Source of the DNA: Ruminococcus sp.
GTDB taxonomy: Bacteria; Bacillota; Clostridia; Oscillospirales; Acutalibacteraceae
Assembly: GCA_017473555.1 (NCBI GenBank)
Contig: JAFUKO010000068.1
Location: forward strand, 28,883-92,882
Direction: 5' to 3'
Length of the DNA: 64,000 nt
Under the pieces are notes generated by a model that saw only the letters and a list, made by a program, of their open reading frames with translations, made no database searches and was not told the DNA's origin. A program made the position numbers and the translations under genes. Shown here piece by piece: positions 48 through 58,204 of this stretch. Each line of letters opens with the position of its first letter. Position 1 is the stretch's first letter.

Positions 48-608
48 ATGCTGATTGATATAACCTTGAAAATTACAAAATCAATGCTGTCCGAGTCTAC
101 TGTTAACGAAAACAAAGCTCTTATCGGTCACGTAGGGACTCACTTTGACGTGATGGACGAGGAGTTTCCGCTTAGCTACACAAAGCGTAAAGGTATAGTC
201 TTTGATGTATCAGGAGTAACACACAGAGATATTGGTGCAGATGACATTGATATTGAAAAAGTCAGTGCGGATATGTTTGTAGCTTTTTACAGCGGATTTA
301 TTGAGAGTGTAGGCTATGGTGAAAGCGGATATTTTACTGTTCATCCTCAGCTTAGCGATGAATTGATTGATGCTTTGGTAGAAAAGGGCATTTCTATAAT
401 CGGTCTTGATTTTGCCGGAATAAGACGTGGCAAAGAGCATATACCTAAAGACAGATACTGTGCGCAGCACGGAGTTTTTGTTGTCGAAAATCTGCGCAAT
501 CTAAAACGCCTGCTGAATTACAGCTCGTTTTATGTTTATACATACCCGATGAGTATTGGAGATATCACAGGTCTGCCATGCAGAGTAGTTGCTGAGGTTG
601 ATGACTAA
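48..608 (+). CDS. Cyclase family protein (kynurenine formamidase-like metal hydrolase)
   Basis: A 186-residue protein with the metal-binding signature of the cyclase/kynurenine formamidase family, HxGTHxD, at residues 28-34 (H28, H32, D34), followed by 'VFDVSG' and a C-terminal 'IGLDFAGIRRG' strand typical of the fold. Family members are metal-dependent hydrolases of N-formyl or cyclic amide substrates; the substrate cannot be read from the sequence and no tryptophan catabolism genes lie nearby. It is slightly shorter than the usual 200-220 residues. A GGGAGAA ribosome-binding site precedes the ATG. The hydrolase gene follows 60 bases downstream in the same direction and may be cotranscribed. 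Confidence 0.8.
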   Translation: MLIDITLKITKSMLSESTVNENKALIGHVGTHFDVMDEEFPLSYTKRKGIVFDVSGVTHRDIGADDIDIEKVSADMFVAFYSGFIESVGYGESGYFTVHPQLSDELIDALVEKGISIIGLDFAGIRRGKEHIPKDRYCAQHGVFVVENLRNLKRLLNYSSFYVYTYPMSIGDITGLPCRVVAEVDD

Positions 609-668
609 AGTATTGCGATATTGAGTATACTGTTGTTACTAAGTATGCTATTTATTGTGTAATTTCTG

Positions 669-1619
669 GTGATTTATTTGATTATTATTTCGTTTCTATT
701 ACTGATTGTAGCGGTTCTGGTCGCTGTATACTATGTTTATCGAGTTGCGTTTTATTCCCGCAAAAAGGGACAGGACGATGTTTATGCTGTGCCAGTAGGA
801 GAGCAATATGAACCCCACAAAAGTGAGATAGTTGAACTTATCGACAAGCTTTCTCAAATAGAGTACAAGGATGTTTATACAAACTCGTTTGATGGTTTGC
901 GCCTGCACGGCAGATATTATCACGTGCAAGACGGAGCACCGCTAAATATTGGATTTCATGGATATAGAGCGACTTCGTTACGTGATTTTTGTGTTGGTGC
1001 TAACGAGAGTCTGAAAAGAGGGCACAACATTTTACTTATAGACCAGCGAGGTCAGGGTAAAAGCGAGGGTAAGACAATTACTATGGGTGTAAAAGAGCAT
1101 CGTGATGTGCTCTCGTGGGTTGAGTTTGCCAATGCTCATTTCGGCGAGGATACTAAAATCATTCTTTATGGGGTGTCTATGGGTGCGGCGTCGGTTCTGA
1201 TGTCAACAGCTTTGCCACTGCCTGAAAATGTAACCGGTGTTATTGCTGATTGTCCGTACAATGCACCAAAGGATATTTTGCTGAATGTTTGTCAAAAGGA
1301 TATGGGGATAAATCCTAAAGTAGCATATCCGTTTATATGGCTTGCAGGAAGATTGTTTGGCAATTTTGACATAAACGCTGTCAGTTGCGAGAGTGCTGTC
1401 GCAAACTCAAAAATTCCGGTACTGATTCTGCATGGCGAGGATGACCGATATGTGCCATGCTATATGAGTGAAGAGATTGAAAGGGCTAACAAAAAGCTTG
1501 TCACACGTTACACTTTTCCAAATGCAGGACACGGAATCAGCTTTTTTTCAGACAAAGAGCGTTATCGCAAAATTACTGAAGCGTTTTTTGAAGAGTGTAC
1601 ACAGGATGATAAAAAATAG
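669..1619 (+). CDS. Membrane-anchored alpha/beta hydrolase
   Basis: A 316-residue serine hydrolase of the alpha/beta fold. The first 25 residues form one transmembrane segment, so the enzyme is probably membrane-tethered. The oxyanion region is 'GFHGYR' near residue 96, the nucleophile elbow is GVSMG with S170, the acid is D258 or D259 in 'HGEDDRYV', and the catalytic histidine is H288 in 'NAGHGIS'. It resembles the DUF-annotated alpha/beta hydrolases of Clostridia that act as esterases or peptidases; substrate unknown. The start is GTG at 669; no strong ribosome-binding site is visible, so a TTG at 678 is an alternative. A strong terminator follows at once. Confidence 0.85.
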   Translation: MIYLIIISFLLLIVAVLVAVYYVYRVAFYSRKKGQDDVYAVPVGEQYEPHKSEIVELIDKLSQIEYKDVYTNSFDGLRLHGRYYHVQDGAPLNIGFHGYRATSLRDFCVGANESLKRGHNILLIDQRGQGKSEGKTITMGVKEHRDVLSWVEFANAHFGEDTKIILYGVSMGAASVLMSTALPLPENVTGVIADCPYNAPKDILLNVCQKDMGINPKVAYPFIWLAGRLFGNFDINAVSCESAVANSKIPVLILHGEDDRYVPCYMSEEIERANKKLVTRYTFPNAGHGISFFSDKERYRKITEAFFEECTQDDKK

Positions 1620-1626
1620 TAATGTG

Positions 1627-1660
1627 AGAACAGCGAAGATAATTTTTCGCTGTTCTTTTT
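1627..1660 (+). terminator. Intrinsic terminator after the alpha/beta hydrolase
   Basis: Perfect 11-bp stem (1627-1637 with 1646-1656), an 8-base loop, then a run of Ts. It ends the cyclase-hydrolase unit. Confidence 0.85.
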
Positions 1661-1778
1661 GCAATATAAAGGTAAGTTTGTTTTGTAAGATTTGTACATA
1701 GCCTTGTAAAACTTGCACAAAGTGGAATAGCCATAATTATTCAATCGGTCAAACTTTTGTGGCGTTTAGTCATTTTTA

Positions 1779-1807
1779 TTGTATATTTTGTCCATTTGTA
1801 ATATAAT
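1779..1807 (+). promoter_or_regulatory. Candidate promoter of the EF-G-like gene
   Basis: TTGTAT (1779-1784) and TATAAT (1802-1807) are separated by 17 bases, about 85 bases before the start codon. The -35 is only a partial match to consensus. Confidence 0.6.
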
Positions 1808-1892
1808 TAAATGGTGTTCACGGGTTAAGTTGTGGAAAATGACCGAAAATGTCGTTTTTCTTAGACCCATAAGAAAGGAGTTGTTTTCAATT

Positions 1893-3968
1893 ATGAAACA
1901 ATATGACGCAAAACACATCTTGAATATTGCTATGGCTGGTCACTCAGGTGCTGGTAAAACTTCTGTCGCTGAGGCTATGCTGTATCTCTCCAAGGCTTCT
2001 GACAGACTTGGTAGAATCGCTGACGGTAACACAATGCTCGATTACGATGCTGAAGAAATAAAGAGAAAGGTATCAGTCCTCACAGCAGTTGCTCCTGTTG
2101 AGTGGAAGAATATGAAAATCAATCTCATTGACACTCCAGGTCTTTTTGACTTTGAGGGTGGTATCTGCGAGGGCTATCGTGCCGCTGAAACAGCTATGAT
2201 CGTTGTATCTGCTAAAGACGGCGTAAACGTTGGTACAGAAAAGGCTGTAAAGGCTGCTACAAAAGCAGGTCTTACAAAGCTGTTCTTCGTAAACGGCGTA
2301 TGCGACGAGGATGCTCGTTTCTATCGTGTACTTGAGGATTTAAAAGCTACTTTTGGTCCGGCTGTATGTCCTGTAATCGTTCCTCACATTGAAAACGGTC
2401 AGGCTAATACATATATCAACCTTTTTGAGTATAAGGCTTACACATATGATAAAGCAGGCAACGCTACTCCATCTGACATTTTACCTGAGATGGGTAACAG
2501 ACTTGAGGGCTTACGTGAAGCAATCAAGGAAGCTGTTGCTGAAACTTCTGAAGAGCTTATGGAGAAGTTTTTCGAGGGTGAAGAGTTCACTCCTGACGAG
2601 ATTATCTTAGGCGTTGCTCAGGGTGTTAAGGACGGTTCACTCTGTCCTGTATTCTGCGGTGATGCTCATTCTACATTTGGTATCGAGCAGTTTATGAACT
2701 CACTTTCATGGCTTGCTCCTACTGCTGCTGATAAGGGCGCTGAGGTTGGTGTTGACGTTAACGGCGATCCTATCGACATCACAGTTAACGAGGCAGGTGC
2801 TGCTGCAGCAATAGTATTTAAGACAGTAGCCGACCCATTCGTTGGTAAGCTCTCTTACTTCAAGGTAGTATCAGGTAAGATTTCAACAGAAACTCCACTT
2901 GTTAATATGCGTACTGGTAAGGAAGAGCGTATCACTAAGGTTCTTACAGTTAAGGGTAAGAAGCAGGAAGACGCAGCATATATCGGTGCAGGTGACATCG
3001 GTGCTATTCCAAAGCTTTCTTCTACTATCACAGGCGACACACTCTGTGCTCCAACTCGTAGAGTTATCTTAGAGGGCGTTTCATATCCTGCTCCATCTTT
3101 CTCAATGGCTATGTATCCAAAGAAGAAGGGCGAAGAGGATAAGGTTGCTCAGGGTCTCGTTAGACTTGCTGAAGAAGATCCAACTATTAAATTTGTAAAC
3201 AACTCTGAAACTAAAGAAATGGTAGTTTCAGGTATGGGCGAACAGCACCTTGATGTAGTTGTTTCAAAGCTCAAGAATAAATTTAACGTAGAAGTAGAGT
3301 TAAAACAGCCAAAGGTTGCTTATCGTGAGACTATCCGTTCAACAGCTGATGTTCAAGGTCGTCACAAGAAGCAGTCAGGTGGTTCAGGTCAGTTCGGTGA
3401 CGTATGGATTAAATTTGAGCCATGCGATTCTGACTCACTCGAGTTCGAGGTTCAGGTAGTCGGCGGTTCTGTTCCAAAGCAGTTCTACCCAGCAGTTGAA
3501 AAGGGTCTTCGTGATTCTATCAAGAAGGGTCCTCTCGCAGGTTATCCTGTAGTTGGCGTAAAGGCTATCCTCCATGATGGTTCATCCCACCCTGTTGACT
3601 CAAACGAAATGGCGTTCAAGATGGCAGCACAGATTGCTTTCAAGAATGGTATCCCACAGGCTAAACCTACACTCTTAGAGCCTATCGGTGCATTAAAGGC
3701 TAACGTTCCTGATGCTAACATGGGCGATATCATGGGCGAAGTTAATAAGCGCAGAGGTAGAGTCCTCGGTATGAACGTAGGCGAAGACGGAATGCAGATC
3801 GTTGAGGCTGAGGTTCCAATGGCTGAGATGGCTGACTTCTCAGTTTATATGCGTCAGGTAACACAGGGCAGAGGCTCATTCAGCTTTGAGTTTGAGCGTT
3901 ACGAAGATGCTCCTGCTCAGGTTTCCCAGAAAGTTATCGCTGAAGCTAAGGCTAACGCTGAGGAATAA
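1893..3968 (+). CDS. Elongation factor G-like GTPase paralogue (EF-G2 type) with degenerate G motifs
   Basis: A 691-residue protein with the full domain order of EF-G: GTPase domain, domain II, and the C-terminal III-IV-V arm ('GRHKKQSGGSGQFGDV' is the domain IV signature). The P-loop GHSGAGKT (16-23) is intact. The G3 motif reads DTPGLFDF (80-87), lacking the catalytic histidine of canonical EF-G (DTPGH). The G4 motif NKxD is replaced by NGVC at 134-137, so the lysine and the guanine-recognising aspartate are gone. I place the start at ATG 1893 because AAGAAAGGAG (1871-1880) sits 12 bases before it; an upstream in-frame extension has no such site. No canonical fusA neighbours (rpsL, rpsG, tuf) are present, so this is not the primary translocase. 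A TetM-like tetracycline protection role is not supported. Confidence 0.85.
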   Translation: MKQYDAKHILNIAMAGHSGAGKTSVAEAMLYLSKASDRLGRIADGNTMLDYDAEEIKRKVSVLTAVAPVEWKNMKINLIDTPGLFDFEGGICEGYRAAETAMIVVSAKDGVNVGTEKAVKAATKAGLTKLFFVNGVCDEDARFYRVLEDLKATFGPAVCPVIVPHIENGQANTYINLFEYKAYTYDKAGNATPSDILPEMGNRLEGLREAIKEAVAETSEELMEKFFEGEEFTPDEIILGVAQGVKDGSLCPVFCGDAHSTFGIEQFMNSLSWLAPTAADKGAEVGVDVNGDPIDITVNEAGAAAAIVFKTVADPFVGKLSYFKVVSGKISTETPLVNMRTGKEERITKVLTVKGKKQEDAAYIGAGDIGAIPKLSSTITGDTLCAPTRRVILEGVSYPAPSFSMAMYPKKKGEEDKVAQGLVRLAEEDPTIKFVNNSETKEMVVSGMGEQHLDVVVSKLKNKFNVEVELKQPKVAYRETIRSTADVQGRHKKQSGGSGQFGDVWIKFEPCDSDSLEFEVQVVGGSVPKQFYPAVEKGLRDSIKKGPLAGYPVVGVKAILHDGSSHPVDSNEMAFKMAAQIAFKNGIPQAKPTLLEPIGALKANVPDANMGDIMGEVNKRRGRVLGMNVGEDGMQIVEAEVPMAEMADFSVYMRQVTQGRGSFSFEFERYEDAPAQVSQKVIAEAKANAEE

Positions 3969-4115
3969 GCGTCCGAGCACCACAGCCTTCACATCGTAGG
4001 GTTCGGCGTTCACGACGAACCATATTTCAAAAGCATGTGGACTTTTGAGGAGTAGCGAAGGTAAACGAGGCGTGATATATAAGCGTCTGATCATCGAAAT
4101 ATATTATATAAAAAT

Positions 4116-4143
4116 AACCCCCTGATTTTCAGGGGGTTTTGTT
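4116..4143 (+). terminator. Intrinsic terminator of the EF-G-like gene
   Basis: CCCCCTGA (4118-4125) pairs with TCAGGGGG (4129-4136), flanked by A/T pairs and a T-rich tail. About 147 bases of unannotated DNA separate it from the stop codon; they contain a small dyad GTTCG..CGAAC near 4002-4021 but no gene. Confidence 0.85.
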
Positions 4144-4160
4144 ATGCGAAAATGATGGGT

Positions 4161-4194
4161 AAAAAAACCGCGTGTGTAATTTAACACACGCGGT
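4161..4194 (-). terminator. Intrinsic terminator of the pgk-tpiA-gpmI operon
   Basis: Ten-bp stem (4168-4177 with 4184-4193) with a run of seven As on the plus strand at 4161-4167, which is the U-tract on the minus strand. It lies just after the gpmI stop and faces the convergent EF-G terminator. Confidence 0.85.
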
Positions 4195-4215
4195 AATATT
4201 TTATGAAACTTATGA

Positions 4216-5730
4216 TTACTTAATGAGTGATTTACCTGTCATTTCAGCAGGCTGTGGAAGCTCCAAAATTTCGAGCATTGTTGGTGCGATATCAGCGAGG
4301 CAACCGCCATCTCGAAGTGTGCAGTCTTTACCAACAACAACGAAAGGAACAGGATTAGTTGTATGAGCTGTAAATGGTGAGCCGTCTACGTCATACATTC
4401 TGTCAGCGTTGCCGTGGTCAGCAGTGATGAGTGAAATACCGCCCATCTCAGCTACTGCATCTGTAACAGCCTTAACGCCCTTGTCAACAGCCTCAACAGC
4501 AGCCTTCGCAGCGTCAAATACACCTGTGTGACCTACCATATCGCAGTTAGCAAAGTTAAGGATGATAACATCGTACTTGCCAGTCTTGATAGCTTCAACA
4601 CACTTGTCTGTTACTTCGTAAGCACTCATATGAGGCTGGAGGTCGTATGTTGCAACCTTTGGAGAAGCCACAAGAATTCTGTCCTCGCCATCGTACTGCT
4701 TTTCAACACCGCCGTTGAAGAAGAATGTTACGTGAGCGTACTTCTCTGTTTCAGCGATTCTAAGCTGAGTTTTGTTCATTTTTGAGAGATACTCGCCTAA
4801 TGTGTTTGTTAAACTCTGTGGCTTGAAGGCTACCTCTACGTTTGGCATAGTAGCATCGTACTGAGTCATACAAACATAAGTGAGTGGCATCATACCGTTT
4901 CTTCTCTCAAAACCTGTGAATTCAGGATCTACGAAAGTACGGGTGATTTCTCTCGCTCTGTCAGGGCGGAAGTTGAAGAATACAACTGAGTCGTTAGCAG
5001 AAATTCTCTTTGTGCCCTCGATAACAGTAGGGATAACGAACTCATCAGTAACATCGTTTTCGTATGATTTAGCAACAGCGTCAACAGGACAAGTAGCCAT
5101 TTCACCCTCGCCGTAAACCATAGCAGCGTAAGCTTTTTCAACACGCTCCCAACGGTTATCTCTGTCCATAGCGTAGTATCTGCCTGTAACTGTAGCAATC
5201 TTACCAACGCCGATTTCGTTCATCTTATCAACGCACTCTTTAACAAAGTCTTTACCGCTTGATGGTGGAACATCACGGCCGTCTAAGAAAGCGTGTACGA
5301 ATACATCAGTTAAGCCCTTTTTCTTAGCCATCTCAAGGATGCCGTAAAGGTGAGTGTTGTGTGAATGTACACCACCGCTTGATAAAAGACCGAAAAGGTG
5401 AAGTGATGTGCCGTTATTTAAAGCGTTATCCATAGCAAGGTTTAATGCCTCGTTATTAAAGAAATCGCCGTCATTGATTGATTTTGTGATTCTTGTTAAC
5501 TCCTGATAAACGATGCGGCCCGCACCCATATTTGTGTGGCCAACTTCACTGTTACCCATCTGACCGTCAGGAAGACCAACGTCCATACCTGATGCACCAA
5601 TCTGTGTGATAGGGTTTTCTGCAAAGATTTTATCAAGAGCAGGAGTTTCAGCTGCAGCAATAGCGTTACCATCAACAGGAGCTATGCCGAAGCCGTCCAT
5701 AATAATTAAAGCAAGTGGTTTTTTAGCCAT
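4216..5730 (-). CDS. gpmI: 2,3-bisphosphoglycerate-independent phosphoglycerate mutase
   Basis: A 504-residue enzyme that interconverts 3- and 2-phosphoglycerate in glycolysis, using two divalent metals (usually Mn). It belongs to the alkaline phosphatase superfamily. The N-terminal 'IIMDGFGI' carries the first metal-binding Asp, 'MGNSEVGH' carries the phosphorylated serine, 'DGRDVPP' binds substrate, and 'TADHGNAD' with a late His ('FTAHTTNPVP') completes the metal sites. Length is normal for the family (about 510). It is the last gene of a pgk-tpiA-gpmI unit, 23 bases after tpiA, and ends at a strong terminator. The gap and eno genes usually found in larger glycolytic operons are absent here. 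Confidence 0.97.
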   Translation of the reverse strand: MAKKPLALIIMDGFGIAPVDGNAIAAAETPALDKIFAENPITQIGASGMDVGLPDGQMGNSEVGHTNMGAGRIVYQELTRITKSINDGDFFNNEALNLAMDNALNNGTSLHLFGLLSSGGVHSHNTHLYGILEMAKKKGLTDVFVHAFLDGRDVPPSSGKDFVKECVDKMNEIGVGKIATVTGRYYAMDRDNRWERVEKAYAAMVYGEGEMATCPVDAVAKSYENDVTDEFVIPTVIEGTKRISANDSVVFFNFRPDRAREITRTFVDPEFTGFERRNGMMPLTYVCMTQYDATMPNVEVAFKPQSLTNTLGEYLSKMNKTQLRIAETEKYAHVTFFFNGGVEKQYDGEDRILVASPKVATYDLQPHMSAYEVTDKCVEAIKTGKYDVIILNFANCDMVGHTGVFDAAKAAVEAVDKGVKAVTDAVAEMGGISLITADHGNADRMYDVDGSPFTAHTTNPVPFVVVGKDCTLRDGGCLADIAPTMLEILELPQPAEMTGKSLIK

Positions 5731-8969: not shown

Positions 8970-10385
8970 ATGAAAAAGATATTATGTTTAGCGCTCAGTT
9001 TTATTATGATAGTTTCTCTTGCAACATCGTTTAGTGCGAGTGTTACTATGAATAAATCTTTAGACGCAAGTAGTGATGAGGCGTCTAAAGATAGTACCAT
9101 TCCAGAGGGATATACAGAGACAGGTTCTTGCGGTAAGAACGCTTTTTGGTATTACTATGACGATACAAAAACTCTCATAATCAGCGGTGAGGGCAAGGTC
9201 GAAAGACCTGACTTCTACAAACCAACCTTTGATTATCATGGGTTGCCTTTTGAAAAAGCCATCATTGAAGAGGGTATAACAGAGCTTGGCAGTTATGCTT
9301 TTTCAAAATGCGAGTTTTTAAAGGAAGTTTCGCTTCCTGACAGCCTTACGAGAATTGAGGATTCTATATTTGGGTATTGTAAGAGTTTGAAAAGTATTAC
9401 TATTCCCAAAAATGTCAGTTATTGGGGTATGAATAACTTTTACTATTGTGAATCTCTTGAAGAAATCATAGTTGACCCTGAGAATACTACTTTCGATAGC
9501 AGAGATAACTGTAACGGTGTTGTGGTTACTCAAACAAATATGTTAAGATATGCTTGCAAAAACACAACAATTCCTGAGAGTGTTACAAGTATTGGATCAA
9601 TGACATATTGCGGTGTAATGGGTGTGACAGAAATTACAATACCTGATAACGTTACAAGTATATATGGTCAGGCTTTTCAAGAATGTGTTGACCTTGAAAC
9701 AGTCAAGTTGCATCCTAATGTTAACTTATATCCTTCAGGTATATTCAGTAAGTGTAAAAAACTGAAAAACGTTTATCTTCCTTCTGGTATAACAGAGATT
9801 GGTATGCAGGAATTCAGCGAATGTACAAGTCTTGAGAGTATTGTAATACCTGCAAGCGTTAAGTGGATTAATCAATCTGCTTTTCTTAATTGTACATCTC
9901 TTAAATCGGTTACCATTGAAAACGGAGTTAAAGCTTTAGGCCCGGGTGCTTTTACCGGATGTACAAGTCTGGAAGAGGTTGTTCTGCCAAAGTCTGTAGA
10001 TACAATCCAGATAGCGACATTTAAAGATTGTGCAGCTATGAAAAGTGTGACTGTGTATAATCCGGAGTGCGAGATTGGTGATATGGACATAACATTTCCA
10101 GCGAACGCTGTCATCTACGGATATGAAGGCTCTACAGCACAGCAATATGCTGAAAAATATGCAAGAGAGTTTATCGCTTTACCTGAGCCAGAGTATGCTA
10201 TCGGCGATGTAGATTTAGACGGCGATGTTTCAATCATGGATGCAACAGAAATCCAGATGGTTGAAGCACGACTCAAAGAATGGAAATCTGAAAACTGTGA
10301 GGCACTGGGCGACGTTGATAACGACGGTGAAGTATCTGTGCTCGACGCTACCGAAATACAGCTTATCATTGCAGGACTGGCCTAA
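8970..10385 (+). CDS. Secreted BspA-type leucine-rich repeat protein with C-terminal dockerin
   Basis: A 471-residue protein with a signal peptide (1 to about 24). Residues about 85-385 hold repeated BspA/LRR_5 units of the type 'FSKCTSLESIVIPASV' (alternating cysteine-bearing 'C.SL..I.IP..V' lines), a fold used for binding polysaccharides, host or surface proteins. The C terminus (about 400-471) is a dockerin with two calcium F-hands, 'DVDLDGDVSIMDATEIQ' and 'DVDNDGEVSVLDATEIQ', which should bind a cohesin. No catalytic domain is present. AAAAAGGAG precedes the ATG. It is a single-gene unit with its own promoter and terminator. A binding or adhesion component of a cohesin-dockerin assembly is the most likely role. 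Confidence 0.88.
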   Translation: MKKILCLALSFIMIVSLATSFSASVTMNKSLDASSDEASKDSTIPEGYTETGSCGKNAFWYYYDDTKTLIISGEGKVERPDFYKPTFDYHGLPFEKAIIEEGITELGSYAFSKCEFLKEVSLPDSLTRIEDSIFGYCKSLKSITIPKNVSYWGMNNFYYCESLEEIIVDPENTTFDSRDNCNGVVVTQTNMLRYACKNTTIPESVTSIGSMTYCGVMGVTEITIPDNVTSIYGQAFQECVDLETVKLHPNVNLYPSGIFSKCKKLKNVYLPSGITEIGMQEFSECTSLESIVIPASVKWINQSAFLNCTSLKSVTIENGVKALGPGAFTGCTSLEEVVLPKSVDTIQIATFKDCAAMKSVTVYNPECEIGDMDITFPANAVIYGYEGSTAQQYAEKYAREFIALPEPEYAIGDVDLDGDVSIMDATEIQMVEARLKEWKSENCEALGDVDNDGEVSVLDATEIQLIIAGLA

Positions 10386-12370: not shown

Positions 12371-12408
12371 TACATTGGTAGCTATATTAACATTTTAAGG
12401 AGGTTAAT

Positions 12409-15400
12409 ATGAAGAAGTTATTATCAATAATTCTCTCAATAGTTATGGTATTAAGTGTTATGCCATATACTGTTTTTGCTGAGGAAGTCAGCAGCCTGTC
12501 CTATGAATTTACAGGCATAAACGCTGATGACCCGGGCTACGCAGAGGGTACTATCACCTTTAATGCAGGCTCAGCAGCAACCTATTATATGTATTGGGGC
12601 GACGATGAAAAGGCTCTCCCACAGTATTTTGAGATTACATCATTTACTGTTCAAAAGGGCGATTCAGTCACATACAAATTCCCTGCACAGACAGCTATAC
12701 CTGCTGATGCAGAATGCGTATTTATATCTAAAATGAAGTCGTGTGAAAACGCATACGTAAGCGAAGGTATCGCAAAATTTGACCTTCCTGACAACAAAAA
12801 GCTTGTTGATTCTTCCGATGAGCGTCAGTACAGATATGCGGCCCTTTCTGATATTCACATCGATATGCAGCACGGCACAAAAGCCGGTTACTACACATAC
12901 GCAGTAGATCACTGGAAGCAGACACTCGACGTTTGTGTTGACAGAAATGTTGATTTTATCATTTCAGCAGGTGACCAGGTTACAAATGCTTATGGTGCTA
13001 CCCTTGAGTGGCTTACATATCAGCAGGTGCTTTCGGAGTCTGATTACGTTAACCCTATTTATGAAGCTGACGGTAACCACGAGCCACGAGGTAGTTATAA
13101 CAGTGATTGCGATGTTGCTTGTAGCAACGAAGAATACGCTATCGGCACTGGTCTTGATAAAGACGCTCAGTCAATCGTTGACGGCAAAGACTACTACGAA
13201 GTAACAGAGCCTAACACAGGTGACCACTTTATCTTTATGAGCGAGGTTCACGCTCATCCGGGCGAGAATGATAACTTCTCAACCGAGCAGCTTGATTGGC
13301 TTGAGGGCTTGCTCGCAAAGTATAAGGGCGACGGCAAGAAGGTTTTCCTTATCCAGCACGCACTTTTACAGGGTTATGGCGCAGGTGACGATGTCTATGA
13401 TCCGGGCTATCAGGGCGGTATCAGAATGCAGCACGCTGAAACAGGTGAGCAGTTCCCTAACAACCAGCGATTCAAGCAGATTATCGAAGCTAACAAGGAT
13501 ATTATCTGGTACTCAGGTCACACACATATAGATTTCAGAGAAGAGCAGAACTATAGTAGCGAGAATGGTACCTCTTGCCATATGGTACATATTCCGTCTG
13601 CTTGTAATACAACAAGCTACGTTAAAGATGCTAACGGATATAAAGTGCCTGGTTCTTCAACAGACTATACATTCTACGATGATGCAACACAAGGCTACTT
13701 TGTAGATGTATATGAAGATGCAACTATCCTTTACGGAACAAATCTTCACTACAACAAGGTTTACCCAAGATACACATATATTATCGAAGAGGGCGAGCCA
13801 GAAACAAGACCTACAGAAACACCAACACAAAGACCTACATCTCCACCACCTACACAGCCTGATATTGCTGATGGCAAGACAGTTTACTGCGTAAATTCAG
13901 CTAACTGGGCTGAGGTTTACGTTCATTCCTGGGTTGATGGCAGTACAGGTACAACATGGCCAGGTTATGCTATGACTAAAACAGGCGAGCAGGCTAATGG
14001 TTTTGATGTTTACAAAGCAGTTGTAGAGCCTGGTTATACAAACGTTATTTTCAACAATAACAACAAAGGCTCACAGACCTCTGACCTGACAATTCAGGAG
14101 GGACAGTATTTTGACGTAAGATCAGGCAAGTGGTACGCATCATTAGATGATATCCCTGAGGTTGGTGCACTTGCTACTGATCGCTTCCTTGTTGGTTCAT
14201 TCAACAACTGGAGTACAGTGGCAAACGAGTTTATGCTCAAAGCTGAGGGCGATTTGACAGCTTACGTTACTATGACTCTTGAAGCTAATACAACCTATGA
14301 ATTCAAGGTAGTAAGAGAAGGTAAATGGACAAGTAACACAACACCTATCACAGGTGATGTAGAAGAACTTGTATTTTCATCTTCTGTTAACGATAATGCA
14401 ACAATCACAACAACTTACGCAGGCGAATATGAGTTCTCTTTTGGTATCAGCAGCTCAAGATTAGCAGTAAAATATCCAACACAGGCTCCAACACAGCCTC
14501 CTACAGAGGAGCCAACAGAGGAGCCGACAGAAGAGCCAACAGAGGAGCCGACAGAAGAGCCAACTGAAGAGCCGACTGAAGAGCCTACTGAGGAACCAAC
14601 TGAGGAACCTACAGAGGAGCCTACTGAAGAACCTACAGAGAAACCTACCGAAGAGAAAGTTTTATACGGTGACTCTGATTTAGATAAGTCTGTTACAATT
14701 ATGGACGCAACATTTATCCAGCTCTATCTGGCACAGAAAGAAGATTTTAGCGATAAACAGTTAAAGTGTGCTGATGTTGATGGTGAGGGTATTACGATTA
14801 TGGACGCTACTCTCATTCAGCTTTATCTTGCACAGGCAATTGATAAATTCCCTATTGAAGAAAAAGCAGTCGCAACAGTAGGTTCCAAAAAATCTGTTGC
14901 AGGCACTTCTGCTGATGTTTTAACAAGCGAGGAGCTTTTCACAAAGGCTACTGACTATCTGTCATATTACTTCCAGTATGCATCATACGATACATATCAG
15001 GCACTCAAAAAGACAGTATATGCATATAAAGATACTGATACTACAGCTCTTACAGCCTCAGCTCAGGCAGAGCTAACAGATGCTATTGCCGCTTTTGATG
15101 CACTCAGAGAAAAGGTGCACCAGCAGACAGTTTACTACACAGACGGCAAGGCATTCAGTGGTATCAGAGCATATTACTTCAACAGTAAAACTAATGCAAA
15201 GGTTGAGGACTGGCCTGGTCAGATTGGTTCATACATCCGCACAAACTCCTATGGACAGAACATCTACGCCGTAACATTAAACTTCTCTAAGTTTGATACT
15301 ATCATATTCAGCGGCGGTAGCAACAAAACTGTAGATATAACTCTCGACGGATGTTCAGGAAAACTCTACTATCCGACAGAGCAGGATGCTACAACAGGCG

Positions 15401-15774
15401 AATGGGCAGTTGCAGAAACAACCTTCAAACAGATGTGGTACGGCGAGAAACAGGACGAGATAGGTGATGACGTGCTCGAAGATATCACTGTTTACTTCAC
15501 CGATACCTTAGGTTGGAGTGCTGTCAACTGTTATTATTGGCTTGGTTCTGCAAACAACACATGGCCTGGCGAGAAAATGGAGTTTGTCAGAAACAACTCT
15601 CAGGGACAGCCTATCTATAAGATTACTCTCCCTGCTGGTGCATCAGCGGTATTTAATAACGGCTCAGGTACACAGAGCGTTGATGTCACAGGACTCGCAC
15701 ATGGATACGGATACTACCTCACAACCCAGTCAGGCGGAAAATACCTCTATGACACATACAAATACGGAGAGTAA
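12409..15774 (+). CDS. Secreted metallophosphoesterase with starch-binding-like modules and an internal dockerin
   Basis: A 1121-residue multimodular protein. A signal peptide (1-24) precedes a beta-rich region (25-140), then a calcineurin-type phosphoesterase (about 141-455) with metal ligands D148/H150 ('SDIHID'), D189 ('AGDQ'), N223-H224 ('GNHE'), H317, and H371/H373 ('GHTHID'). A Pro/Thr linker leads to a CBM26-like module (489-580, W500, W508, 'WPG' at 517), a second beta-sandwich like the CBM48/X25 fold (590-688, 'FLVGSFNNW'), a 50-residue PTEE repeat linker, a dockerin (752-815), a helical segment (about 835-905), and two more CBM26-like modules (907-1010 and 1024-1121). The substrate is inferred: phosphate esters on starch or another polysaccharide. 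AAGGAGG precedes the ATG. A small gene follows 10 bases later. CBM assignments are by eye. Confidence 0.85.
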   Translation: MKKLLSIILSIVMVLSVMPYTVFAEEVSSLSYEFTGINADDPGYAEGTITFNAGSAATYYMYWGDDEKALPQYFEITSFTVQKGDSVTYKFPAQTAIPADAECVFISKMKSCENAYVSEGIAKFDLPDNKKLVDSSDERQYRYAALSDIHIDMQHGTKAGYYTYAVDHWKQTLDVCVDRNVDFIISAGDQVTNAYGATLEWLTYQQVLSESDYVNPIYEADGNHEPRGSYNSDCDVACSNEEYAIGTGLDKDAQSIVDGKDYYEVTEPNTGDHFIFMSEVHAHPGENDNFSTEQLDWLEGLLAKYKGDGKKVFLIQHALLQGYGAGDDVYDPGYQGGIRMQHAETGEQFPNNQRFKQIIEANKDIIWYSGHTHIDFREEQNYSSENGTSCHMVHIPSACNTTSYVKDANGYKVPGSSTDYTFYDDATQGYFVDVYEDATILYGTNLHYNKVYPRYTYIIEEGEPETRPTETPTQRPTSPPPTQPDIADGKTVYCVNSANWAEVYVHSWVDGSTGTTWPGYAMTKTGEQANGFDVYKAVVEPGYTNVIFNNNNKGSQTSDLTIQEGQYFDVRSGKWYASLDDIPEVGALATDRFLVGSFNNWSTVANEFMLKAEGDLTAYVTMTLEANTTYEFKVVREGKWTSNTTPITGDVEELVFSSSVNDNATITTTYAGEYEFSFGISSSRLAVKYPTQAPTQPPTEEPTEEPTEEPTEEPTEEPTEEPTEEPTEEPTEEPTEEPTEEPTEKPTEEKVLYGDSDLDKSVTIMDATFIQLYLAQKEDFSDKQLKCADVDGEGITIMDATLIQLYLAQAIDKFPIEEKAVATVGSKKSVAGTSADVLTSEELFTKATDYLSYYFQYASYDTYQALKKTVYAYKDTDTTALTASAQAELTDAIAAFDALREKVHQQTVYYTDGKAFSGIRAYYFNSKTNAKVEDWPGQIGSYIRTNSYGQNIYAVTLNFSKFDTIIFSGGSNKTVDITLDGCSGKLYYPTEQDATTGEWAVAETTFKQMWYGEKQDEIGDDVLEDITVYFTDTLGWSAVNCYYWLGSANNTWPGEKMEFVRNNSQGQPIYKITLPAGASAVFNNGSGTQSVDVTGLAHGYGYYLTTQSGGKYLYDTYKYGE
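14500..14655 (+). repeat. In-frame tandem repeat encoding the PTEE linker
   Basis: About twelve copies of a 12-base unit encoding Pro-Thr-Glu-Glu, with third-position changes between copies (CCA/CCG/CCT, ACA/ACT). It is an extended acidic linker between the second binding module and the dockerin, and its copy number is likely to vary between strains. Confidence 0.9.
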
Positions 15775-16151: not shown

Positions 16152-16643
16152 ATGGAAGTTTCATTTAGTGCTAAAATGCAGGCAGAAAGGGTAATACGGC
16201 AGTACGCTGATATGATATTTCGCATAGCGTTACAAAATTTGAAGAATAAGGCTGACGCTGAAGATATACTACAGGACGTAAGTCTTGCACTTCTTACAAA
16301 GAATGCACCCTTGTATGATGAAAGCCACATAAAATCATGGCTGATTCGTGTCACGTTAAATAAATGCAAAAATTTTCATAAATCTGCACATAGAACTAAA
16401 ACCGAACCCCTTTCGGATTATGTCGAGCTTTGTGCCAAAGAGGATCAACGGCTTTTAGAAGATGTTATGGGTTTACCGAAAAACTATCGTAATACGCTGT
16501 ATCTCTTTTACTACGAGGGCTACAGTATTGACGAGATTGCTAAGCTACTGAATAAAAAGCCTTCAACAGTAGGCTCGTGGCTACATAGAGCTCGAAAAAA
16601 GTTGAAAACAATAATCTTGGACGGAGGTAATGGTTGTGAATAA
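16152..16643 (+). CDS. ECF-type RNA polymerase sigma factor
   Basis: A 163-residue sigma-70 family protein of the extracytoplasmic-function type. Region 2 spans about 10-75 ('YADMIFRIALQNLKNKADAEDILQDV') and region 4 about 100-155 ('YYEGYSIDEIAKLLNKKPSTVGSWLHRARKKLK', a helix-turn-helix). Regions 1 and 3 are missing, as expected. GAAAGGGGG precedes the ATG. Its stop overlaps the start of the next gene, a membrane protein that is probably its anti-sigma factor. Confidence 0.92.
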   Translation: MEVSFSAKMQAERVIRQYADMIFRIALQNLKNKADAEDILQDVSLALLTKNAPLYDESHIKSWLIRVTLNKCKNFHKSAHRTKTEPLSDYVELCAKEDQRLLEDVMGLPKNYRNTLYLFYYEGYSIDEIAKLLNKKPSTVGSWLHRARKKLKTIILDGGNGCE

Positions 16644-17577
16644 AAACAGATATACTAAACTCTTTGACAGAATAAAAGCTGATGATGATGCAGTAAGAAA
16701 TGCGGTTGACAGTATTTATGAGAAAGAAACTACAGATGTGGGTGAGTTTAAGCTCACGAGGAATATGAATTTGAAATTTGTGCATGCTGTGGCGGTTGCC
16801 TTGGTGTTTGTGCTAGTTTTAGGTGTGTATATTTTGCCGATTACCCCAAAAGCTGATAACTGCTTTGTAGTGAAAGCAGGAGCATCTGAAATAAACTCGA
16901 TAAGTAGCGTAGAGATAGGCGAGCTTAAAGGTGAGAACAACGCTATAAGAATTTGTTTTGATGACAGTGATAAAGTAAGCTATTTGGTTCAGTGTAAGGT
17001 GGTTGATTTTCCTGTTATGTGTACGGGAAATAATATTGAAAAAGTAACCTATAAAGTGAAAGGTAACGGCTATTTCGCACTGCATAGAGATGTGCAGGGA
17101 GTGTCAGATGTAGAATACGTTGAAAAGGCCCCTACCTCTTACGAAGAAGAGCAGAAGTATCCTTATGATTTAGCAGATACTGGAGATTATACGAAGAAAG
17201 CTCTTGCATATACAGTTGACTATGATGCACAAAATGAGGCTGTTGCAAAGCTCTGTCTTTATACCGTGGATGATGGCGATAAATACTGCGACTCATATAG
17301 CGAAACCATTTATTTCGAGGAATCGGACGGCTCGTTTGTTCATGGAAAGGACTTTGACTATGAGATGATGTATCTCGATATTTTCACCGACGGCGACTAT
17401 AGTGTTGATGCAATCAACTACAGCGACTACAGTGTAGAAATTACGGCTACGTTTGAAGATGGCACACAGGAATCGAAGACTGTGAACATAGGTCTTGAGA
17501 AAACAAAAAAGAATTACGATAGCGGTGAGGACGGAGAATACACAGTGCTAAACGTACACGCTAAGTTATCTGAATAA
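16636..17577 (+). CDS. Single-pass membrane protein, putative anti-sigma factor
   Basis: A 313-residue protein with a cytoplasmic N terminus of about 47 residues, one transmembrane helix ('VHAVAVALVFVLVLGVYILPI') and a large extracytoplasmic domain of about 240 residues rich in Asp, Tyr and beta strands. I choose GTG 16636 because GGAGGT (16623-16628) is 7 bases upstream; the ATG at 16630 is too close. It overlaps the sigma gene by 8 bases, the usual arrangement for an ECF anti-sigma factor. It lacks a zinc-binding anti-sigma motif and an RsgI-type N-terminal domain, so the role rests on context. The signal sensed is unknown. Confidence 0.65.
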   Translation: MNKNRYTKLFDRIKADDDAVRNAVDSIYEKETTDVGEFKLTRNMNLKFVHAVAVALVFVLVLGVYILPITPKADNCFVVKAGASEINSISSVEIGELKGENNAIRICFDDSDKVSYLVQCKVVDFPVMCTGNNIEKVTYKVKGNGYFALHRDVQGVSDVEYVEKAPTSYEEEQKYPYDLADTGDYTKKALAYTVDYDAQNEAVAKLCLYTVDDGDKYCDSYSETIYFEESDGSFVHGKDFDYEMMYLDIFTDGDYSVDAINYSDYSVEITATFEDGTQESKTVNIGLEKTKKNYDSGEDGEYTVLNVHAKLSE

Positions 17578-40588: not shown

Positions 40589-40761
40589 GAGGTGGTTGTA
40601 ATGCACAAAAAACAATAAATATTTTCAGTCAATATAGCAGTTGTATTATGGTTCAACGAGTTGTAGAATATAATTGTAAGAACAAGACCGATGAATTGGT
40701 TTTTATAAAACCGAGTCGGTAGTATTTGTCCTGTGTATATTTTTTAGAGAGGAATGATTTT

Positions 40762-42024
40762 ATGAAAAAGGTTATTTCTATTATTTTATTCTTGGTTATA
40801 GCTTTAAATGTTGCGGGTTTATCGGTGTCTGCACAAACAGCGGAAATCTCTGACAGCTTGTTGTCTGCTATAAGAGTTGAGTATTCTGACCAGGAACTAG
40901 TAAAGGATGATATCTCGGTTAGATTTATGAAAGAGCTGTCACACGATAAATATATTCTTAAATACACCGTGAGCAACTATGCTTATACTTGCGATGTAGT
41001 AGATATTTATGTCGGTGATTACCACATTACGTCAGCTCGTCCGTTACCTGTTATCTTTATGGATGGTACACTTTACGATATCGAAGATGCATATGACAAT
41101 GGGTTGCTCAGTGAGTCTGACTTGCGTACAATGTCAGAGTTTGAAGAGCTCAATATGGTGAAAACAGTCATCACTGAGGAGCTTATGTACGCTATGGCTT
41201 ATTACGCAAATGATGATTATATCAATATCCGTTTTGAGGTGCAGGGTTTTGATAAAACAATAGCTGATATTGATGGCTGGGTTGATGATATACGCGGAGC
41301 GGTGGCTAAGCTTAATGAACACTATGAAAGCTTGCATCAGAAATTACTCAAGGACGTGCTGGATGATATTGAGTACAAAGATCAGGTACATAACAATGGT
41401 GTGAGTGTGGTTGCTGTTAAGAAGAGTGATATCGAAAAGCTGTCGCACAATGAGTTTGTTTTACAGATGGACTATATATCTGAAGTGCATCTTAAGTATA
41501 TTGAGCAATTTGATGCCCGATTTAAGGAATACACTTATGAAGAAAAATGTCGTGAAACAGATGGCGACGGAGAGTTTTCTTATTGGCTGATAAATGCACA
41601 CAACAATATGGGTAGCAGTGCGGTAGTTGGATTCCGTTTTGGTGACCATATTGTCAGAAGTGGAGCGATTTACGGTAATTTTACATACGGATATGGTATT
41701 TATGATATAAAGGAAGAAAAGTTCTATGATGTCTATGATTTGAGAGATTGTGTAGACAAATACTATAGACTTGAAGATCACCTTGCATTTTATAGCAGAG
41801 CAGTACAGGTCGGTGACAGTGATGGTGATCGTAACGTTACAGTTTTGGATGCCACAAAAATTCAGAGATTTATTGCAAAACTTGATTATTTGTGGGATGA
41901 TGCATACACTTCTCATGAGAATAAGAAGACAGTTTATGTTTCTGATGTAGATTATGATGGAAAGATTTCTGTTTTAGATGCAACAGCTATTCAGCTTAAA
42001 CTTGCAAAGTATGATTCATTTTAA
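40762..42024 (+). CDS. Secreted dockerin protein with a duplicated domain of unknown function
   Basis: A 420-residue protein with a signal peptide (1-24). Two segments look duplicated: 'IYVGDYHITSA' to 'LYDIEDAYDNG' near 85-120 and 'FRFGDHIVRSG' to 'FYDVYDLRDC' near 290-335. I do not recognise the domain and see no catalytic motif. The C-terminal dockerin has F-hands 'DSDGDRNVTVLDATKIQ' and 'DVDYDGKISVLDATAIQ', separated by an unusually long linker. The ATG at 40762 has AGAGAGGA upstream; an earlier in-frame ATG would precede the signal peptide. The gene stands alone between two terminators. Confidence 0.8.
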   Translation: MKKVISIILFLVIALNVAGLSVSAQTAEISDSLLSAIRVEYSDQELVKDDISVRFMKELSHDKYILKYTVSNYAYTCDVVDIYVGDYHITSARPLPVIFMDGTLYDIEDAYDNGLLSESDLRTMSEFEELNMVKTVITEELMYAMAYYANDDYINIRFEVQGFDKTIADIDGWVDDIRGAVAKLNEHYESLHQKLLKDVLDDIEYKDQVHNNGVSVVAVKKSDIEKLSHNEFVLQMDYISEVHLKYIEQFDARFKEYTYEEKCRETDGDGEFSYWLINAHNNMGSSAVVGFRFGDHIVRSGAIYGNFTYGYGIYDIKEEKFYDVYDLRDCVDKYYRLEDHLAFYSRAVQVGDSDGDRNVTVLDATKIQRFIAKLDYLWDDAYTSHENKKTVYVSDVDYDGKISVLDATAIQLKLAKYDSF

Positions 42025-56554: not shown

Positions 56555-56609
56555 TTTGTATGCATTTTCTGTTACAGTATGAATGGAAAATATATGGGAG
56601 GATGATTCT

Positions 56610-57182
56610 ATGAAAAAAGTGTTTTCTGTTTTGTTAGCATTGATGCTGATGTTGTCGTGTGTTATTAACGCTGGTGCGATTCCTGCTCCGTGCTATTATG
56701 GTGATGCTAATGCTAACGGTGAGTCTAATGTGATGGATGTTACCTTTATACAGGAAGTTCTGGTTAAATTGAATACGATGTCTGCTTTACAGAATAAGTT
56801 AGCTGATGTTAATGCAGACGGAAACCTGAGCGTGTTTGATGCAACACTTATTCAACTTAAGTTAGCTAAGTGTATAAGTGAATATCCTGCCGGCAAGGAA
56901 GTTTATGTCTATATGCTTTTAGGTGGTTTTGAGACGGATAAAGAATCCGGTTTGGCTACTGTGAACGAGCCTGTCACCTTTACTGTTTTTCCGGACGGCA
57001 AGTGTGAACCATTCTACTTTGACTATTATGTAAATGGTGAGTTGATAATTGATGATTCTCAGGAGACATCGTTTACATATTCATTTGATGAAGCAGGCAG
57101 TTATAGAATACAGGCTACTGCTACAAATTCTGTGGGCGTTTCATCTGTTGTTTCAATGGACTTTGAAGTAGTTGAAGCCTGA
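56610..57182 (+). CDS. Secreted protein with N-terminal dockerin and Ig-like C terminus
   Basis: A 190-residue protein. A signal peptide (1-23) is directly followed by a dockerin (about 28-90; 'DANANGESNVMDVTFIQ' and 'DVNADGNLSVFDATLIQ'), and then a beta-sandwich like a PKD/Ig-type fold (about 95-190; 'FTVFPDGKCEPFYFDYYVNG', 'YSFDEAGSYRIQATATN'). Most dockerins are C-terminal; here it is N-terminal. No enzyme motif is visible. The ATG at 56610 has GGAGG 10 bases upstream. It is paralogous to the next gene. Confidence 0.82.
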   Translation: MKKVFSVLLALMLMLSCVINAGAIPAPCYYGDANANGESNVMDVTFIQEVLVKLNTMSALQNKLADVNADGNLSVFDATLIQLKLAKCISEYPAGKEVYVYMLLGGFETDKESGLATVNEPVTFTVFPDGKCEPFYFDYYVNGELIIDDSQETSFTYSFDEAGSYRIQATATNSVGVSSVVSMDFEVVEA

Positions 57183-57286: not shown

Positions 57287-57316
57287 TGACCACTAAAAAG
57301 AATTTTGGTGAATATT

Positions 57317-58204
57317 ATGAAAAAAGTGATTTGTTTTCTGCTTTGTGCAGTAATTATGATGTCGTTTAGTGTTATGAGCACAAACGCTGCTATTGAGCCG
57401 ATTGCCTATGGTGACGCTGATGCCGACGGTGATGAAAATATTTTCGATGTTACGTTTGTACAGCTTTGCGTGGCTTTACTCGATGAAATGGATAAGTTGC
57501 AATTTGAGGTTTCCGATGTTGATGATAACGGAGAGATAACCATTATGGATGCGACTATGATTCAATGCCATAACGCTGAACTTATAGACAGCTACCCTGC
57601 GGGCGGATCGGTATCGCTTGATTTGGATATTCATAACTTCTACTGCAACTTAGGAGATGCTGTGCTGACGTCAAATGATTTAGCGACTTTTTATGCGGAT
57701 GTTTATAGTGGTGTAGGTGGACCGGTTACTTACAGCTTCTACATAAACAAAAGACTTGTACAAGTAACAAATGATTCGTATTTCAGCTACTATTTCAGAG
57801 AAGCCGGCGAATATGATATTAAAGTTGTTGCCGAAAACCATATAGGTATTGTTGAAGAAGCACATCTGAAAGTTCAAAGCATCGGAGAAGAAACTCACAC
57901 TGCACCAGAGATTGGAGTTTACTATACTAATCTGTATAAACGAGATCTGTGTGACCGTGCTGATGATGCAACAATTAACGTTATGGTTCTGGGTGCAGAT
58001 GAACCTTATGAGTATGCATTTGACCTTTATTATGGGGATAAATTGATAGCATCACAGATAATGTCCGAGGATAACACCTTTAAGTTGCATCCTGACAAAT
58101 TGAAGATTAAACACGAATATACCTTATATGTTGCGGTTAGTACAGGTGACTCAAATATCTACTTAAGAGATGTGCCTGTGCTCGTAAGATACACAAGAAT
58201 ATGA
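57317..58204 (+). CDS. Secreted protein with N-terminal dockerin and two beta-sandwich regions
   Basis: A 295-residue paralogue of the upstream gene. The signal peptide (1-25) is followed by a dockerin (about 31-95; 'DADADGDENIFDVTFVQ' and 'DVDDNGEITIMDATMIQ'), a beta-sandwich (about 100-195, with 'FREAGEYDIKVVAENHIG' equivalent to the Ig-like end of the first protein), and a further domain (200-295, 'YEYAFDLYYGDKLIA', 'LKIKHEYTLYVAV'). The ATG at 57317 has a weak GGTG upstream. No catalytic residues are evident. Confidence 0.8.
   Translation: MKKVICFLLCAVIMMSFSVMSTNAAIEPIAYGDADADGDENIFDVTFVQLCVALLDEMDKLQFEVSDVDDNGEITIMDATMIQCHNAELIDSYPAGGSVSLDLDIHNFYCNLGDAVLTSNDLATFYADVYSGVGGPVTYSFYINKRLVQVTNDSYFSYYFREAGEYDIKVVAENHIGIVEEAHLKVQSIGEETHTAPEIGVYYTNLYKRDLCDRADDATINVMVLGADEPYEYAFDLYYGDKLIASQIMSEDNTFKLHPDKLKIKHEYTLYVAVSTGDSNIYLRDVPVLVRYTRI

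Follow-up and report, generated by a model that had tools for sequence, protein, structure and literature searches.

A starch-module-bearing metallophosphoesterase of the Ruminococcus bromii genus as a putative glucan phosphatase

Domain layout of the metallophosphoesterase gene

The sequence analysed here (the window) is a 64,000-nucleotide stretch of a Ruminococcus sp. genome (GenBank assembly GCA_017473555.1, contig JAFUKO010000068.1, positions 28,883 to 92,882). On its forward strand, positions 12409..15774 hold an open reading frame (ORF) of 1121 amino acids, preceded by an AAGGAGG ribosome-binding site (12397..12403) that was rated as good by direct reading of the sequence. The analysis confirmed that the product of this gene is a secreted calcineurin-like metallophosphoesterase joined to three CBM26 modules, an X25-like module, and a dockerin. 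The protein begins with a Sec-type signal peptide (residues 1-24; 12409..12480), judged by eye, followed by a beta-rich N-terminal domain (25-138; 12481..12822), which was delimited by alignment and an AlphaFold2 (AF2) model and is common to the secreted relatives. The metallophosphoesterase domain (139-458; 12823..13782) comes next, and a Pro/Thr linker leads from it to CBM26 copy 1 (13882..14091; 50.3 bits). Behind this module lie an X25/CBM48-like starch-binding beta sandwich (588-690; 14170..14478), a long Pro/Thr/Glu linker with EEPT repeats (14476..14658; PF04886 PT), and a type I dockerin (753-807; 14665..14829), the second calcium loop of which is short by one residue. A conserved segment (816-904; 14854..15120), CBM26 copy 2 (15130..15339; 30.9 bits), and CBM26 copy 3 (15490..15687; 52.2 bits) complete the protein, and the last copy matches modules of R. 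bromii Amy16, Amy10, and Amy4.

The first-pass annotation had described a secreted calcineurin-type phosphoesterase with a complete set of metal ligands. All eight residues that it named (D148, H150, D189, N223, H224, H317, H371, and H373) are present in the window copy, and the AF2 model that it had called for showed a calcineurin-like fold, that of the PF00149 superfamily. By itself, the window copy stays under the PF00149 cut-off: its catalytic part reached 18.8 bits with Metallophos_2 (cut-off 27) and gave no match at E 0.01 in the family scan. A PDB profile search with the catalytic part returned weak matches only, to parts of Mre11, SMPDL3A, and 2nxf. Across the family, a PF00149 match at E 0.01 was obtained for 65 of the 67 members, and the orthologues L034 and L035 scored above the cut-off. 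In the alignment, the metal-site residues of blocks I-V fit the calcineurin-like pattern. Seven of them (D148, D189, N223, H224, H317, H371, and H373) are invariant in all 67 catalytic parts, and position 150 is H in 50 rows and Q in 17. These 17 Q rows form a single group in the maximum-likelihood tree (support 100/100). The host genome has a second starch-tagged phosphoesterase (L026:2529-4874), which is Q-type, with Q replacing the block I His; the window copy itself is H-type. The window's lineage comprises seven tree rows. Five of its genomes (G000, G210, G215, G238, and G296) each also have a Q-type row, and the other two rows, L036 (G312) and L038 (G307), each have a second copy bearing the same SDPQ block; both subtypes are thus kept in all seven genomes of the lineage.

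As for the starch modules, the three CBM26 copies foreseen from the letters were recovered, each above the Pfam cut-off. The predicted CBM48/X25-like sandwich held in structure but not in profile membership: the model has an X25-type fold whose best matches are starch-binding domains, but its scores fall below the cut-offs for X25 (15.8 to 18.8 bits vs 27) and CBM48 (15.5 to 16.1 vs 22.4). The segment between the dockerin and CBM26 copy 2 has no Pfam match and is probably helical, judging by its letters; it contains YYxYSSYDxYQALKK and has residues that are near-invariant across the family. In R. bromii Sas20d1, three helices accompany a CBM26-like fold around maltotriose (PMC9112005).

Distribution within and beyond the genus

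The genus of the window is that of R. bromii: in a search of all 161 genus genomes, the solved Amy16 fragment matched G297 at 98% and G231 at 94%, and G297 is taken here as R. bromii because of this 98% identity. The family profile matched 101 of the 161 genomes at E 0.001 (63/100 in the first sample and 38/61 in the second) and, among the listed rows, 94 at E 1e-80 or better (58 and 36). For nine of these 94 (G235, G239, G247, G278, G279, G280, G325, G331, and G337), the sole match of this strength is a short frame that starts past the N-terminal domain. The secreted form is thus counted in 85 of 161 genomes, three of which (G226, G288, and G293) have its gene broken by a stop. Many genomes hold two or more paralogues. 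The named members, at eight loci, are Ruminococcus metagenome-assembled genomes (MAGs) from the colon or rectum of sheep, goat, roe deer, and cattle and one Oscillospiraceae MAG.

To describe the C-terminal halves, 60 loci were chosen from the stronger full-length matches, and those with in-frame stops were skipped. From the 73 ORFs found, we dropped the repeats L034, L035, L037, and L040 and the other-genus proteins L042, L051, and L028, giving 66; L142, which meets a contig end and has no C-terminal part, was also excluded, so that the C-terminal set was the window copy plus 65 rows (L173 and L187 were kept though they run into a contig end). Pfam at E 0.001 detected CBM26 in 61 of these 66 rows, a dockerin in 47, the AMPK glycogen-binding model in eight, and the X25 model in one; our own CBM26 profile found 63. 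Because the choice of stronger full-length loci favours tagged forms, 60 further places were fetched, short ones included. With our own profile, CBM26 was present in 40 of their 43 full-length rows, two of which repeat L036 and L038; L312, one of the three without it, is cut by a contig end. Another 17 rows lack the N-terminal part. Fifteen of them, of 303 to 449 residues, have no CBM26, and the two with CBM26 are fragments, L275 from a broken gene and L276 from a contig end. Hence, within the genus, a starch tag is borne by almost all copies of the secreted form and is missing from a short, apparently intracellular one. In L281 (G354), 4 bases separate a short copy (1424-2452) from a tagged one (2456-4741) of the same orientation. 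A short piece in L317 (G335; 1-513) overlaps the end of a tagged frame (506-3211), again with both on one strand. Given these adjacent or overlapping frames, the short and tagged copies may be made together, as in an operon.

Beyond the genus, relatives in the same taxonomic family vary in their modules: CBM26 and dockerin occur together in L003 (G019) and L042 (G091), and CBM26 in a second G091 protein (L028), while L045, L047, L048, and L033 have a dockerin without CBM26, and L046, L049, and L012 have neither. Across the order, 23 of 394 genomes matched the family at E 1e-30. This set gave 22 rows outside the four genomes already covered, of which 20 were fetched (G444 and G553 were left out) and 18 proteins were scanned after the broken rows L261 and L262 had been set aside. 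Pfam at E 0.001 found Metallophos in 18/18, a dockerin in 6/18, and CBM26 in 0/18. No family match was found in the plasmid search at E 1e-10.

An 80-row maximum-likelihood tree was rooted at its midpoint, with a long-branch warning for the outer rows, and was built on rows other than the short genus forms. In it, the genus rows together with L051, L042, and L028 form a 70-row group (support 99/99) that contains every tagged row, and the other relatives fall outside. We read this as an older phosphoesterase that may have become tied to starch in this lineage and duplicated afterwards. Chance similarity was ruled out, as the fusion recurs among paralogues and genera.

Host genome and gene neighbourhood

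The host genome is a MAG of 1.98 Mb, 92.96% complete. At E 0.001 it has 78 dockerin, 7 cohesin (6 above the cut-off), 18 GH13, and 43 CBM26 matches; its gene set looks amylosome-like, which agrees with the setting proposed by the first-pass annotation. The fetched stretches hold 23 CBM26-bearing host ORFs, of which 20 and L026 were scanned with Pfam and two small ones (L216) were left out. Among the 20, five have an alpha-amylase domain (PF00128), two a papain-type protease domain above the cut-off, one a PF00756 esterase domain, and one a CotH kinase domain; a third papain-type match, in L209, is just short (20.5 vs 20.7 bits), and the remaining ORFs match no known catalytic family but have starch modules, some of them together with a dockerin. 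The papain-like proteins (L208:1627-4638; L208:4725-7013, C120; L209:312-3326, C136, just below the cut-off) may be proteases that are tethered to starch and attack the protein coat of the granule. The esterase-like protein (L210:2272-3756, C11) also has a sub-threshold dockerin match, and the CotH-kinase protein (L206:361-7746, C62), of 2462 residues, carries an X25-like module beside CBM26. Two further relatives in the same genome gave no CBM26 match: L030:1869-5495, a metallophosphoesterase with an N-terminal dockerin and fn3 domains, and C102, a 370-residue frame.

The phosphoesterase gene itself is flanked by a GH25 gene upstream and by an extracytoplasmic function (ECF) sigma factor gene and one further gene downstream, and none of the near neighbours within the window looked starch-related. 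The downstream pair occupies 16152-17577, and its second gene, which has no Pfam match, perhaps encodes a membrane partner. At 8970-10385 lies the gene of a secreted protein with leucine-rich repeats, the C-terminal part of which is dockerin-like (20.1 bits vs a cut-off of 22.9); it resembles the R. bromii proteins Doc1 and Doc2. Three further dockerin-type proteins are encoded at 40726-42024, 56583-57182, and 57305-58204. The third scores below the cut-off, and two of the three are adjacent and have an N-terminal dockerin.

Proposed function and comparison with known systems

The predicted attachment of the protein to starch is well supported by the families of its modules. On this basis we tentatively favour, at somewhat less than even confidence, a starch-tethered and probably scaffold-joined phosphoesterase that would hydrolyse phosphate esters borne on starch, its substrate being deduced from its placement. 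The three CBM26 modules and the X25-like module would hold the secreted two-metal enzyme on starch, and the dockerin would probably join it to a cohesin scaffold beside amylases. There, the two-metal site might hydrolyse phosphate esters at the starch surface. The likeliest targets would be amylopectin phosphate monoesters at C6 and C3, and their removal would let neighbouring amylases and pullulanases pass. On a bolder and less probable reading, the H-type and Q-type paralogues of the window's lineage could split this work, e.g. between C6 and C3 phosphate, and the short, apparently intracellular relative beside a tagged one in two other genomes looks as if it finished a phosphorylated product inside the cell. 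We also infer that the phosphoesterase belongs to a kit that clears the non-glucan components of starch granules. Glucan phosphatase is put forward as the leading, putative function of the family.

Several observations weigh against this proposal. The dockerin announced by the first-pass annotation is borne out by its Pfam score (26.0 vs a cut-off of 22.9) but not by its second loop. Judged against the pattern of two regular 12-residue calcium loops, the second loop of the window dockerin is one residue short, and among the 20 rows inspected the first acid of this loop is absent from L138, L140, L038, L044, and L026. Because of these irregularities, docking on a cohesin scaffold is likely rather than certain. 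The 15 short genus forms, in which neither CBM26 (our own profile) nor a signal peptide (by eye) was seen, suggest that the enzyme type also works away from starch. G297, taken as R. bromii, and its near relative G231 have no family-profile match at all, and since these genomes lack the family and only 85 of 161 genomes have the secreted form, it is not essential for growth on starch. CBM26 is also found on the papain-like and esterase-like host proteins, so that a starch tag shows where an enzyme works, not which bond it cuts. In addition, the nearest folds of the AF2 model are diesterases (Rv0805 and GpdQ) as well as monoesterases; the predicted fold is compatible with both, and no computation decides the substrate. 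Finally, the 100 genomes of the first genus sample all carry CBM26, in 6 to 52 copies, and the presence of the family (58 with a strong match, 42 without) was linked to this load, with a raw p of 5.7e-6 and a p of 2.1e-4 when one CBM26 was deducted for each member, but the link was gone once three per member were deducted (p 0.11). As the species are also non-independent, this correlation was set aside.

The untagged or dockerin-only relatives in other genera and the untagged short forms of the genus suggest an enzyme type that is older or broader than its starch tag, and the fold neighbours include cyclic-nucleotide and glycerophosphodiester enzymes. The protein might then be a broad secreted phosphoesterase that scavenges phosphate from nucleotides, sugar phosphates, and diesters and is tethered to starch or the complex merely for nearness to the cell. 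The weak matches of some members to cAMP phosphodiesterase and YaeI models would suit such a role; the NCBIfam matches as a whole are weak, scattered over several phosphodiesterase models, and found with none of these in more than 7 of the 67 members, and the assignment of a substrate from profiles was dropped. We consider the scavenging role unlikely, as the genus specialises in starch and almost every secreted member scanned carries starch modules, and the multiple paralogues of many genomes would be unneeded for general scavenging.

Other substrates associated with the granule were also weighed. Cleavage of lysophospholipid within cereal starch granules, at the phosphodiester or the head group, would fit the presence of GpdQ, acid sphingomyelinase, and SMPDL3 among the fold neighbours, the CBM26-bearing esterase-like protein of the host genome, and lysophosphatidylcholine, which is cited as a phospholipid of maize granules. 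A fold match is no proof of function, however, and Pfam scans showed no lipid-binding or saposin-like domain, making this role distinctly improbable. There is a slimmer chance still that the enzyme works alongside the CBM26-bearing proteases in the grain matrix that surrounds starch, with phytate or phosphoprotein as its target, since the fold is widely shared and nothing singles out phytate. An idle starch adhesin that has retained the phosphoesterase fold might be suspected from the replacement of H150 by Q in 17 of 67 rows, but it is very hard to reconcile with the identity of the seven other metal-site residues in all 67 rows and with a window copy that keeps all eight.

Starch phosphate affects how easily granules are degraded, and plants use SEX4 and LSF proteins to dephosphorylate starch and so give hydrolases access (PMC12892837). 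For bacteria, Gentry and Pace wrote in 2009 that the two domains exist but are never combined in one protein, and they deemed a glucan phosphatase unlikely there, a judgement that covered dual-specificity phosphatases and the genomes of that time (PMC2714694). The present family bears on it by joining a phosphatase-kind domain and carbohydrate-binding domains in bacteria, its secreted part occurring in more than half of the genus genomes searched. The family is conserved and apparently undescribed: as the first-pass annotation had supposed of the module combination, no description was found in the open-access literature searched (supplementary tables lay outside the search, and absence from print is unproven). 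If the proposed function is true, a dephosphorylation step would be added to the gut breakdown of phosphate-rich starch such as that of potato, a kind of step for which only enzymes of plants and animals have been known, and, given the genomes taken as R. bromii that lack the family, species would separate by the starches they can open.

Among calcineurin-like enzymes, the phosphodiesterases GpdQ and Rv0805 share 16 to 17% identity with the window protein, and neither is known to carry starch modules or a dockerin. Identity to purple acid phosphatases and the wheat purple acid phytase, which are compared by fold only, is 14 to 15%. Like the window protein, the R. bromii amylosome proteins Amy16, Amy10, Doc22, and Sas20 have a signal peptide, a dockerin, and modules of the CBM26 or X25 type (PMC5814915, PMC9112005), and the window modules match Amy16 and Amy10 directly by sequence. 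None of these proteins is reported with a phosphoesterase in the main texts of the two papers, from which words starting with phosphat-, phosphoesterase, or calcineurin are absent. Laforin and SEX4 each unite a phosphatase with a module that binds starch or glycogen (PMC2714694, PMC12892837), a dual-specificity phosphatase being combined with CBM20 and CBM21, respectively (PMC2714694). The window protein has no dual-specificity phosphatase domain; its two-metal fold is calcineurin-like and is accompanied by CBM26 and X25-like modules. Unlike laforin and SEX4, it is secreted and dockerin-bearing, and its glucan activity is putative whereas theirs is reported. Because its catalytic fold is calcineurin-like, it stands outside their families and would at most work like them. 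It is doubtful, though conceivable, that these two-metal enzymes, fused to starch modules and plugged into an amylosome, are the first family of secreted glucan phosphatases in bacteria, arisen separately from laforin and SEX4. On the favoured reading, the likeness of the window family to these two enzymes would be convergent.

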